Origin: Roseburia hominis
GTDB lineage: Bacteria; Bacillota; Clostridia; Lachnospirales; Lachnospiraceae
DNA length: 64,000 nt
Direction: 5' to 3'
Assembly: GCA_021771815.1 (NCBI GenBank)
Contig: JAETOE010000010.1
Span: 35,599-99,598 of the forward strand
The notes beneath the pieces are model-generated. The model searched no databases and was not told the origin of the DNA. It saw nothing but the letters and a program-made list of their open reading frames with translations. Of this stretch, positions 29,807 to 43,897 are shown one piece after another (positions within the stretch are counted from its first letter, which is position 1; each line of letters starts with the position of its first letter). A program made the position numbers and the translations under genes.

Positions 29807-29873
29807 AAATCGCAGGTCACGTATTCCCCGGATGCAGGATACGCGAAAATCTATTGTGCAAAAAGCCATAATT

Positions 29874-30017
29874 GGTATAATGTCCACATAAGCAATGAGC
29901 AGTGCCAAGACGTGAAGAAACAAATATCCGTGCTTGCACGGGAATATTTGTTTCTTTGCGGATTGATAGGGCGAATGCCCTTGAACGAGCGAGCTTTGCT
30001 CGCGAGTGCGCACTGCG
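29874..30017 (+). ncRNA. Predicted structured RNA element, copy 1
   Basis: This 144-base element starts with GGTATAAT and has TTGTGC 17-18 bases upstream, so it carries its own promoter. The fold: GCAGTGC near the 5' end pairs with GCACTGC at the 3' end. Inside are a roughly 17-bp hairpin (GAAGAAACAAATAT against ATATTTGTTTCTTT), a small GGGC-GAAT-GCCC hairpin and GCGAGC-TTT-GCTCGC. Copy 2 (43431-43575) keeps the same fold with different stem sequences. It ends 24 bases before the LytTR gene. I know no named RNA family for it. Confidence 0.6.
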
Positions 30018-30040: not shown

Positions 30041-30493
30041 ATGAAAATCAATTACTATCGGGATGAAGCGCTTGCGGACGACCGCGTCGACGTCTACTAC
30101 CGGAAGAAGAACGCCCAAATTACGAATCTGATGGCATATCTGGAATCGGAACAGGTGCTGTACGGTAGGAGCGAGGGGGAGCAGCGGAGGCTGTACCTCA
30201 ATGAAATTTACTATGTCGAGGTCGTGGAGCGTCATTGCTTCGCTTATCTGGAATCGGGCGTCTGGGAAATTGACGAAACGCTGCGAAGCTTTCTTGCCCG
30301 GTATCAGGAGAGCGGATTTCTTCAGATCGGGAAGGCTGCCGCGGTCAATATGAACCACATTGAGAAAATTGTGCCGGATCTTAATATGCGGATGCATCTG
30401 ACCCTCGAGAACGGGGAACGGCTTGTGCTTTCAAGGGCGTTTAAGAAGGAGTTCATGGAGTATTTAAAACAGAAGAAGGAGGAGAGACGATGA
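30041..30493 (+). CDS. LytTR family DNA-binding regulator
   Basis: This 150-residue protein has no receiver domain. The LytTR domain spans about residues 45-148: LYLNEIYYVEVVERHCFAYL, EIDETLRSFLARYQESGFLQ, IGKAAAVNMNHIEKIVPD and RLVLSRAFKKEFMEYL. GAGGAG lies 4 bases before ATG. It overlaps the following DUF3021 gene by 4 bases (ATGA), the common LytTR-membrane-inhibitor pairing. The structured repeat lies directly upstream and probably provides its leader or promoter. Confidence 0.92.
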   Translation: MKINYYRDEALADDRVDVYYRKKNAQITNLMAYLESEQVLYGRSEGEQRRLYLNEIYYVEVVERHCFAYLESGVWEIDETLRSFLARYQESGFLQIGKAAAVNMNHIEKIVPDLNMRMHLTLENGERLVLSRAFKKEFMEYLKQKKEERR

Positions 30494-41929: not shown

Positions 41930-42116
41930 GTTGTGCGCATTCCGGCGCACGCGTCTATTAATATTTTTTGACAAAAGTTAAGATATGTCTAATGTAAAAC
42001 CATCTTTTTTCTATTATCCTAAAATCAGAATCGGCGAAGGCAATGATAAAGAATACATGAAATGTCGCCGTATAAACCGATAATCCGTTGAAACGATGAG
42101 CAAGGGAGGGTATTAT

Positions 42117-42680
42117 ATGTCATTGATTGGGAAGGAATTAGAAGATTTCAAGGTATGGGCGTTCCACAATCAGGAGTTTAAAGAGGTAAAGAAAGAAGAT
42201 TTGCTGGGGAAATGGAGTCTGCTGTTCTTCTATCCGGCAGATTTTACATTTGTCTGTCCAACAGAGTTAGAGGATCTGCAGAACCATTACGAGCAGTTTA
42301 AAGAGTGCGGTTGTGAAATCTATGCGGTGTCCTGCGATACACATTTCGTGCATAAGGCGTGGTGGGATCACTCTGAGCGTATCAGAAAGATCGCATATCC
42401 CATGTTGGGCGATCCGACCGGAAGGCTGGTGCGGAGCCTTGATGTGATGATTGAGGAGGATGGTGTTGCGGAGCGTGCCGATTTTATCATAAACCCACAG
42501 GGCATTATCAAAGTTTATGAGGTGTTGTCCGGAAATGTCGGAAGAAATGCGTCAGAGCTGCTACGTCGCCTTGAAGCGTGTCAGTTTGCGGAGGAACACG
42601 GGGATGAGGTGTGTCCTGCAAATTGGAAGCCGGGTGAGGAGACGTTAAAGCCGAGTCTTGATCTGGTCGGTCTGCTGTAG
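42117..42680 (+). CDS. ahpC: Peroxiredoxin AhpC
   Basis: Typical 2-Cys peroxiredoxin reducing H2O2 and organic peroxides. The length is 187 residues. Peroxidatic Cys in YPADFTFVCPTELEDL, AVSCDTHFVHKAWWDHSE, RADFIINPQGIIKVYEV, and resolving Cys in GDEVCPANWKPGEETLKPS. ATG 42117 has GGGAGGG 6 bases upstream; ATG 42096 is less likely. The upstream 180 bases have a TTGACA at 41968 but no clear -10 and no PerR box that I can see. It is convergent with a thioredoxin-fold gene likely to act as its reductase arm. Confidence 0.96.
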   Translation: MSLIGKELEDFKVWAFHNQEFKEVKKEDLLGKWSLLFFYPADFTFVCPTELEDLQNHYEQFKECGCEIYAVSCDTHFVHKAWWDHSERIRKIAYPMLGDPTGRLVRSLDVMIEEDGVAERADFIINPQGIIKVYEVLSGNVGRNASELLRRLEACQFAEEHGDEVCPANWKPGEETLKPSLDLVGLL

Positions 42681-42715: not shown

Positions 42716-43381
42716 TCAAAGATCTTTGATCAGTGCATAGACCTCTTCCATGGATTTGTCGCCTAAGACGCGGGTTTCGTTGTTTATGATAAGCAGCGGT
42801 ACCCGCTCTATTTTTTCGGCTTCCACGAACTTTGGGTATAATCGCGCGTCGATCGCGCAGGCACGGATGTGCGGATTCAAAAGAGCCATCTGCTGACAGA
42901 CGGCGACCAGGTTTGCGCAGTGATGGCAGGAGAGAGAGACGCAGACGTTCAGAGTGATATCGCTTGTAAGCGCCTGAATCTTTTTCTTAAGGAAAGGAGA
43001 TAGCTTCCGCCCGGGATCGGCGCAGTTGTAGAGCGCGAGTACGAAGGCGTTGATCTCTTTTCCGCCGGGAATGCCGTGGAACGAGACATTCTGGTATGTG
43101 CCGTCTTTGCGCAGCAGTGTTGCGGGAAGAAACGGACAGTTCAGCTTCTGCCTGGCGGCAGGATTCTCATCCGGGGCGTAGAACTCGCAGGACAGTTTAT
43201 CGCTCAGGCGTGTGAAATGCCGGATGAAGACGGCGAGCTCCCGACTGGTCGGCTCTTCTGGGTCGATGATGGAGCAAAGCGTGATTTCTCCGGTGAGCTT
43301 TCTAAGAAGCGGCGTAAGCTGCGCTTCAAGTTCCGCGTCGATCAGAGGGCTCTGATCAGAAAATGTGTTGACAGGGTACAT
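42716..43381 (-). CDS. Thioredoxin-fold protein like the AhpF N-terminal domain
   Basis: A 221-residue protein built of two thioredoxin-like modules, as in the AhpF N terminus. The second has the redox motif VSLSCHHCANLVAVCQQM (CxxC), followed by ACAIDARLYPKFVEAEKIER and VPLLIINNETRVLG with the cis-proline. The flavin and NADH domains of full AhpF are absent. It probably relays electrons to AhpC (42117), with which it is convergent. The start ATG at 43381 has AAGGAGGTG upstream. A palindrome and a structured repeat lie in its leader. Confidence 0.85.
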   Translation of the reverse strand: MYPVNTFSDQSPLIDAELEAQLTPLLRKLTGEITLCSIIDPEEPTSRELAVFIRHFTRLSDKLSCEFYAPDENPAARQKLNCPFLPATLLRKDGTYQNVSFHGIPGGKEINAFVLALYNCADPGRKLSPFLKKKIQALTSDITLNVCVSLSCHHCANLVAVCQQMALLNPHIRACAIDARLYPKFVEAEKIERVPLLIINNETRVLGDKSMEEVYALIKDL

Positions 43382-43399: not shown

Positions 43400-43420
43400 T
43401 ATCATACGAATTGTATGATA
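43400..43420 (-). promoter_or_regulatory. Palindrome in the leader of the thioredoxin-fold gene
   Basis: TATCATAC-GAATT-GTATGATA is a perfect 8+8 inverted repeat between the structured repeat and the ribosome site. It could be an operator or an RNA hairpin near the start codon. Confidence 0.5.
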
Positions 43421-43430
43421 TTTTGTAATG

Positions 43431-43575
43431 CGCAGTGCAGCGCTCGCAAGTATAACTTGCGAGCTCACGGGCATTCGCCCTATCAATCTGCGAAGATACA
43501 ACAAGCCTCGTGCAAGCACAGCTTGTTGTATTTTCGCGGATTGGCACTGCTCATTGCTTATATGTATATTATACC
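43431..43575 (-). ncRNA. Predicted structured RNA element, copy 2
   Basis: Read on the minus strand from GGTATAAT. It has the same conserved parts as copy 1: AAGCAATGAGCAGTGCC, the loop GTGCTTGCAC, GATTGATAGGGCGAATGCCC and a final GCACTGCG. The variable stems are rewritten yet still pair: GCGAAAATACAACAAGC with GCTTGTTGTATCTTCGC, and GCTCGCAAGT with ACTTGCGAGC. The outer stem GCAGTGC/GCACTGC is identical. It is 145 bases long and lies 49 bases upstream of the thioredoxin-fold gene start. Confidence 0.6.
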
Positions 43576-43702: not shown

Positions 43703-43897
43703 ATGGAGAAGAATAAGTACGGTTACATGAATCAGAATGGTATGACAAAGGAAGATGACAAGACCTGTGGACTCAACAATATGAACTGTGAGGAGGAGGA
43801 CGACAAGACCTGCGGACTCAACAACATGAATTGTGTTCCGGAGGAGGACGACAAGACCTGCGGACTCAACAACATGAACTGCGAGAAAGATAATTAA
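43703..43897 (+). CDS. Small peptide with three CGLNNMNC repeats
   Basis: A 64-residue, acidic peptide. After a leader-like start (MEKNKYGYMNQNGMTK) come three near-identical units EDDKTCGLNNMNC, at a 16-17 residue period, and the end EKDN. Each unit has two Cys six residues apart. AAGGAGG lies 9 bases before ATG, and a promoter is visible, so it is very likely expressed. I know no family. It could be a ribosomally made, modified peptide precursor or a metal/thiol-reactive peptide. No maturase is adjacent; the nearest redox genes are AhpC and the thioredoxin-fold protein. Confidence 0.75.
   Translation: MEKNKYGYMNQNGMTKEDDKTCGLNNMNCEEEDDKTCGLNNMNCVPEEDDKTCGLNNMNCEKDN

Follow-up and report, generated by a model that had tools for sequence, protein, structure and literature searches.

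Among described RNA families, Clostridiales-1 RNA (Rfam RF01699) is the one that comes closest to the element analyzed here. It is rated as probably an RNA and as probably neither cis-regulatory nor a switch (Weinberg et al. 2010, PMC2864571). Searches of the literature by the name Clostridiales-1 returned no title or opening abstract on its function, and no work treating repeats of the present kind was found, as judged by title and opening abstract. BOX elements of Streptococcus pneumoniae are alike as modular folded repeats in which one module occurs in variable number, and as elements able to supply and overlap stop codons. One BOX was found joined with T-box leaders, BIMEs are named beside BOX, and BOX elements are overrepresented between convergent genes (PMC3049150), whereas the present element, likened to BOX by description and not by sequence, lay between convergent genes in 2 of the 126 copies for which both neighbors were called. 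Group IIC introns insert immediately after rho-independent terminators (PMC8919778). Similarly, 7 of 139 copies here stood directly behind a T-run, but the element is of 125 bases, has no intron-encoded protein, and in most of its copies follows a -10 box. Rfam includes group II intron models, and none of them matched in our Rfam scans, including those at lax settings. REP/BIME elements with RAYT transposases are hairpin-rich extragenic repeats that can occupy operons; going by this general description, the present element resembles them as an extragenic hairpin-rich repeat with operon placement but differs in anatomy.

The window, i.e., the whole stretch of 64,000 nucleotides that was analyzed, contains two copies of the element. 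A first-pass annotation had placed them at 29874-30017 (+) and 43431-43575 (-), and re-reading of the sequence confirmed both places and the blocks common to the two (Table 1). The element itself measures roughly 125 bases (model positions 1-125). Both copies possess the conserved fold that had been proposed for them, with z values of -8.1 and -7.6 and with 0 of 200 dinucleotide shuffles as good in either case. A covariance model built from the copies, as the annotation had recommended, scored copy 1 at 115.4 bits and copy 2 at 112.8 bits; this model (R1) was made from 28 seeds, both window copies among them, and its E-values are rough. At Rfam cut-offs, the whole window yielded two tRNAs only, and neither copy reached any named family at its cut-off, in keeping with the earlier remark that the element could not be tied to a named RNA class. 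For copy 1, transcription is predicted to start at the last bases of the spacer GTCCACATAA; a transcript beginning some 7 bases past TATAAT, as the annotation expected, would have its 5' end 1 to 4 bases ahead of the conserved GCAAUGAGC. The AUG in GCAAUGAGC was considered as the start of an upstream reading frame, and this was rejected, because by eye the AUG is absent from several copies and the frames differ. No terminator was visible by eye between the core and the Shine-Dalgarno site of either window copy. The protein encoded downstream of copy 2 scored 176.8 bits with TIGR03143, under that model's cut-off, and 29.9 bits with Pfam Thioredoxin_3.

Table 1. Positions of the two element copies, their parts, and the genes downstream of them
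Feature	Coordinates	Strand	Evidence
-10 box TATAAT, copy 1	29876..29881	+	sequence; equal spacing in 46/139 copies
TG extending the -10 box, copy 1	29873-29874	+	sequence
Spacer GTCCACATAA, -10 box to core, copy 1	29882..29891	+	consensus GTNCRCGWAR, 46 copies with spacing 10
Structured element, copy 1 (model positions 1-125)	29892..30017	+	R1 115.4 bits; fold z -8.1
P1 5' strand GCAGTGC, copy 1	29899..29905	+	fold and 28-copy alignment
P2 long hairpin with CUUG loop, copy 1	29906..29965	+	fold, alignment, covariation
P3 GGGCGAATGCCC, copy 1	29969..29980	+	fold and alignment
P4 variable hairpin, copy 1	29981..30009	+	fold, alignment, covariation
P1 3' strand GCACTGC, copy 1	30010..30016	+	fold and alignment
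LytTR DNA-binding domain protein gene, downstream of copy 1	30041..30493	+	Pfam LytTR 69.2 bits
-10 box TATAAT, copy 2	43568..43573	-	sequence; element-free G077 has TATACT there
Spacer ATACATATAA, -10 box to core, copy 2	43558..43567	-	sequence
Structured element, copy 2 (model positions 1-125)	43431..43557	-	R1 112.8 bits; fold z -7.6
Segment with no equivalent at the orthologous G077 site	43406..43569	-	query bases 832-995; alignment
Thioredoxin-domain protein gene resembling part of AhpF, downstream of copy 2	42716..43381	-	TIGR03143, Thioredoxin_3

An alignment of 28 copies, made structure-blind with MAFFT from 5 copies of this genome and 23 from named records, revealed the architecture of a four-way junction. 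P1 pairs GCAGUGC with GCACUGC, P2 is a long stem, free in sequence and with a CUUG loop, P3 has the form GGGC-GAAN-GCCC, and P4 is a free-sequence hairpin that usually contains a CGAG/CGAG internal loop. The compensatory change first noted between the two window copies extended to this set, since 23 of the 38 predicted pairs were altered on both sides. Such changes amounted to 184 cells; shuffles gave 53.1 ± 7.6, and slid controls did not exceed 54. Among the 28 copies they were confined to P2, the P2 tip and P4, with P1 and P3 nearly invariant; in 34 further matches (29 family-wide loci), in an alignment fitted to the model, 5 of 7 P1 pairs and 2 of 4 P3 pairs also covaried. P1 was fully paired in 109 of 139 copies, taking the best of three registers, and 15 of the 139 carried P1 variants, e.g., GCCGUGC/GCACGGC. 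Moreover, when the arms of 130 distinct P2 hairpins were scored symmetrically, mismatches were distributed unequally, with G-T at 124 versus A-C at 34 and G-A at 232 versus C-T at 6; counted per hairpin, G-T was in excess in 67 and A-C in 18. Since a DNA structure equal on the two strands would show no such asymmetry, the folding form is the sense strand, either as RNA or as single-stranded DNA. Thus, the interpretation as a structured RNA rather than protein-coding sequence acquired both statistically supported covariation and a defined folding strand. In several copies (L144, L051, L076, L302 and copy 1 of G077), the 3' half, comprising P3, P4 and the P1 3' strand, was repeated in tandem, so that one P1 5' strand has several possible partners.

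With lax settings, the Clostridiales-1 model matched the two window copies at 26.7 and 31.0 bits, against a gathering cut-off of 48, and in both cases the alignment spanned model positions 1-166 of 166 with equal stem order. None of 6 loci of this genome reached the RF01699 cut-off, and 4 of 16 gave sub-threshold matches, the best at 38.6 bits. The best score outside this genome, among 20 loci, was 44.3 bits, and an intermediate copy (L318) scored 44.3 bits with RF01699 and 87.4 bits with R1. The two families are alike in their four-way layout, in a long second arm with a GCUUGC loop and in bacterial order; some RF01699 copies (L012, L036) also follow T-runs. They differ in the outer stem, which is of the UGAUACC type in Clostridiales-1 and GCAGUGC here, in a long third arm of which 42 positions are unmatched by this element, and in the weak sense bias of Clostridiales-1 (15 sense versus 8 antisense copies between co-directional genes among 30 loci; Fisher P value = 1.6e-4 against this element). 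Clostridiales-1 exceeded its cut-off in 18 of 60 genomes, 16 of these from the same genus as this genome. One genome of that genus (G025) had 36 Clostridiales-1 matches, many about 140 nt long and of equal score, resembling a recent burst. This element and Clostridiales-1 probably represent two branches of a single superfamily. Under Rfam's own rule, this branch is not a member of Clostridiales-1 and constitutes a related, unnamed family.

Beyond what the first-pass annotation had seen, copies are scattered, their presence varies from one relative to another, and they stand at precise positions with respect to -10 boxes, terminators and stop codons. R1 matched 16 copies in this genome at E <= 0.001. 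An initial sample of 40 genomes contained 18 with matches, namely this genome, 15 of 23 congeners and 2 of 16 genomes from other families of the order; in a family-wide sample of one genome per genus with stricter filters, matches were present in 105 of 200. The records behind 40 loci retrieved with a DNA pattern were labeled Lachnospiraceae, Roseburia, Coprococcus, Faecalicatena, Clostridium, Clostridiales and Eubacteriales; going by these labels, the family sampled would be Lachnospiraceae. Three of the copies (L063, L065 and L071) belong to Roseburia inulinivorans DSM 16841. Carriage by phages or plasmids was considered and rejected, as the exact pattern in viral contigs and BLAST in plasmid and phage records gave zero matches. 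The set of 139 copies used for the counts comprised 78 plus 38 matches (116, or 110 after removal of duplicates) and 29 added later; weaker second matches in tandem arrays were mostly excluded, and the copies are non-independent, having been sampled through patterns, models and close relatives. Genes were called with a home-made caller based on codon usage. Between co-directional genes, 81 copies were in the sense and 3 in the antisense orientation; counted per distinct downstream gene family, the ratio was 63 to 3 (P value = 1.3e-15). The other contexts were 40 copies between divergent genes and the 2 between convergent genes, and no downstream gene was called for 9 copies and no upstream gene for 4. 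The 130 downstream genes called belonged to 102 families. A riboswitch serving a single pathway was rejected on this count, there being no common theme. A similar ATTAT...TTCTTAA stretch precedes two of the three antisense copies, one in this genome (L148) and one in G022 (L168), which hints at one common site.

The position of the element relative to signals already present was often sharply defined. Among the 139 copies, 78 began 7 to 12 nt after a -10-like hexamer, with peaks at 8 nt (21 copies) and 10 nt (46 copies), 7 began 7 to 9 nt after a run of at least five T's, and 54 belonged to neither class by rule, including by eye five copies preceded by GATAAT and one by AATAAT at a spacing of 9 to 10; these shares depend on how the copies were sampled. 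The 60 nt upstream of 110 copies contained 52 exact TATAAT boxes in total, and every one was 8 to 11 nt away. The -10 box was extended by TG in 53 of the 67 copies with a spacing of 8 or 10. At spacing 10, the stretch from box to core followed the consensus GTNCRCGWAR; all 46 copies of this class had T at place 2 and C at place 4, and copies behind T-runs showed a comparable NCRCG stretch. Where a promoterless copy followed a co-directional gene, it began -7 to +11 nt from the stop codon in 26 of 32 cases. Short operon gaps may force this placement at stop codons but not the exact junctions at -10 boxes and T-runs. The T-run class includes T-box leaders (L311, 100.7 bits against an Rfam cut-off of 93; L320, 76.3 bits and below it) as well as a leader of the SAM type, L316, whose 74 bits exceed the cut-off of 44.4. 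Composite leaders, with the element directly after the terminator of a T-box or SAM leader, were seen at L311, L316, L320 and L330, the leader upstream of the last being T-box-like by eye only.

Comparison of orthologous sites revealed that the element is present in some genomes and absent from others. At the site of copy 2, the close relative G077 lacks the element and retains the promoter, the Shine-Dalgarno site and the gene, and neither of two G077 loci for this site contained an R1 match. Copy 1 was found in G077 as well, with additional tandem 3' units. At truA, G077 and G070 were occupied and this genome, G034 and G073 were empty, an identical -10-like box standing at the junction in all five; the truA locus of G082 had no R1 match, and the site itself was unreadable. 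At mutS2, 3 of 30 loci had an R1 match (G000, G077 and, with a different P2, G076), G073 was scarred by eye, and most empty loci had TATAAT at the corresponding place; G005 had no R1 match, its site not being located in the alignment. In the ilvB-ilvN interval, 5 of 30 loci had an R1 match, 2 retained one end, and the remaining 23 had gaps of 9 to 51 nt; for ilvN, as for mutS2, the loci are those of the best 30 matches only. At metK behind a SAM leader in another genus, 5 of 15 loci had an R1 match, with at least four types of P2, 4 retained parts by eye, and 6 were without a clear element. The scars indicate that losses do occur. Since the -10 box is also present at the element-free sites of mutS2, truA and copy 2, it belongs to the downstream gene, and the idea of a promoter of the element's own was rejected on the same grounds.

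Of 15 copies of this genome that were compared, 8 had a counterpart among the retrieved G077 copies (7 by flanks, plus copy 1), and of the 7 without one, an empty site was confirmed for copy 2 only. At the L262 site, the promoter in this genome is followed by a different sequence of comparable length, which R1 did not match. The nearest non-orthologous copy resided in the same genome for 30 of 80 copies, versus 3.7 (maximum, 11) with shuffled labels; this clustering was driven by G077 (11 of 20), one metagenome bin (5 of 5), R. inulinivorans (3 of 3), G076 (3 of 3) and G034 (3 of 5) and was weak in this genome (3 of 15), G004 (0 of 9) and G019 (0 of 7). Several sites, those at mutS2, ilvN and a YrdC/TsaC-like gene, were retained across more than one species. 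Of the features by which MITEs are recognized, presence and absence at orthologous sites was thus observed, and terminal inverted repeats beyond P1 were not: repeats with at most 3 mismatches in 14 occurred in 11 of 138 copies, about 5 being expected, and a few copies had longer ones (L046, 14/14; copy 2, 12/14). No target site duplication was evident by eye in the alignments of orthologous sites that included truA, read without a fixed 3' end for the element. At some orthologous sites (L142/L060, L202/L207, and L343 versus L353 and L357), the whole of P2 differed with core and place constant, reflecting either repeated insertion at the same spot or replacement of the hairpin.

Any explanation has to accommodate what the comparisons showed: scattered copies; orthologous sites that are occupied, empty or scarred; a -10 box or terminator already resident at the junction; a strong sense bias; covariation; and folding of the sense strand. 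We consider it probable that these are the properties of a small, non-coding, non-autonomous mobile element whose sense strand forms a four-way junction and which is the predicted 5' leader of host mRNA. The scatter of genes, the empty sites and a partial grouping of copies by genome favor a mobile element over a regulon, and insertion would be one source of the pattern of presence and absence. Seemingly without a promoter of its own, the element would be transcribed from a resident host -10 box at the junction and, behind such a box, from its first bases, so as to form the leader of the mRNA. Its fold, strand and position suggest that an RNA or single-stranded form is under selection; the fold may be kept as a recognition feature, in RNA or a single strand, for the machinery that moves it, and any effect on mRNA stability or translation would be a by-product. 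The factor that moves it would act via RNA, single-stranded DNA or double-stranded DNA. Against this reading, clustering within genomes is uneven, inverted repeats longer than the 7-bp P1 are rare, no target duplication was evident, and some sites are kept in several species as those of a useful leader would be. A host regulatory leader, that is, a selected cis-acting RNA at many mRNA 5' ends whose binding of a general factor or signal would set stability or translation, would account for the sense orientation before genes, the fixed position after -10 boxes, the covariation and conserved core, and the retention at some orthologous sites. It nevertheless appears unlikely, given 102 families without a theme among 130 downstream genes, empty and scarred sites between close relatives, and nearest copies that are often in the same genome.

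We regard as quite unlikely a miniature transposon that moves at the DNA level with a transposase in trans and owes its placement and direction to purifying selection alone. Presence and absence at orthologous sites and the lack of coding content agree with it, as do the few copies with longer inverted repeats (L046 and copy 2), and the operon gaps of 9 to 51 nt might by their shortness alone push insertions toward stop codons. Long inverted repeats are rare, however, so that as a classical DNA element it would have weak ends; the mismatch asymmetry is not expected from a DNA structure of both strands, and neither the abutment to -10 boxes and T-runs nor the orientation of 81 to 3 would be predicted from selection alone. 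Very improbable is an independent small RNA gene driven by a promoter of its own, the type to which Rfam assigns Clostridiales-1: about half of the copies do directly follow a -10-like box, but that box is also found at the element-free mutS2, truA and copy-2 sites, no terminator was visible by eye after the core of either window copy, and many copies lie within operons without a promoter.

A bolder form of the mobile-element reading, which we hold to be rather improbable, likens the element to a bacterial SINE. It would then be a host-transcribed RNA, without protein or promoter, that inserts in the sense direction into the melted non-template strand at promoters and terminators, thereby supplies the precise 5' terminus of both its own transcripts and the host mRNA, and has dispersed through an entire family of gut bacteria; the melted strand would be that of RNA polymerase complexes held at these places, and insertion would fall directly behind the -10 box or the terminator T-run. 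Insertion into a melted strand would account for the sharp junctions at -10 boxes and T-runs and for the near-uniform forward orientation, but leaves the stop-codon class unexplained, which may be a matter of space. If the element is mobile and forms leaders as proposed, about half of the sampled genera in a dominant gut bacterial family would carry an unnamed mobile RNA module located where transcription is predicted to begin, leaving the host promoter in place and serving as leader to unrelated genes. Such a target rule would be unusual among bacterial elements, would provide a natural experiment on the effect of strong 5' structure on mRNA, and would give direction to work on Clostridiales-1-type RNAs.

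Two minor observations concern the surroundings of copy 2. Its P2 is strongly palindromic, and R1 also matched the opposite strand there (43484-43543, +) with 23.7 bits. A short reading frame that begins nearby in divergent orientation to the copy-2 promoter (43703-43897, +) contains three DDKTCGLNNMNC units (tandem repeat, 43749-43885) and is close to an ahpC-like gene at 42096-42680.
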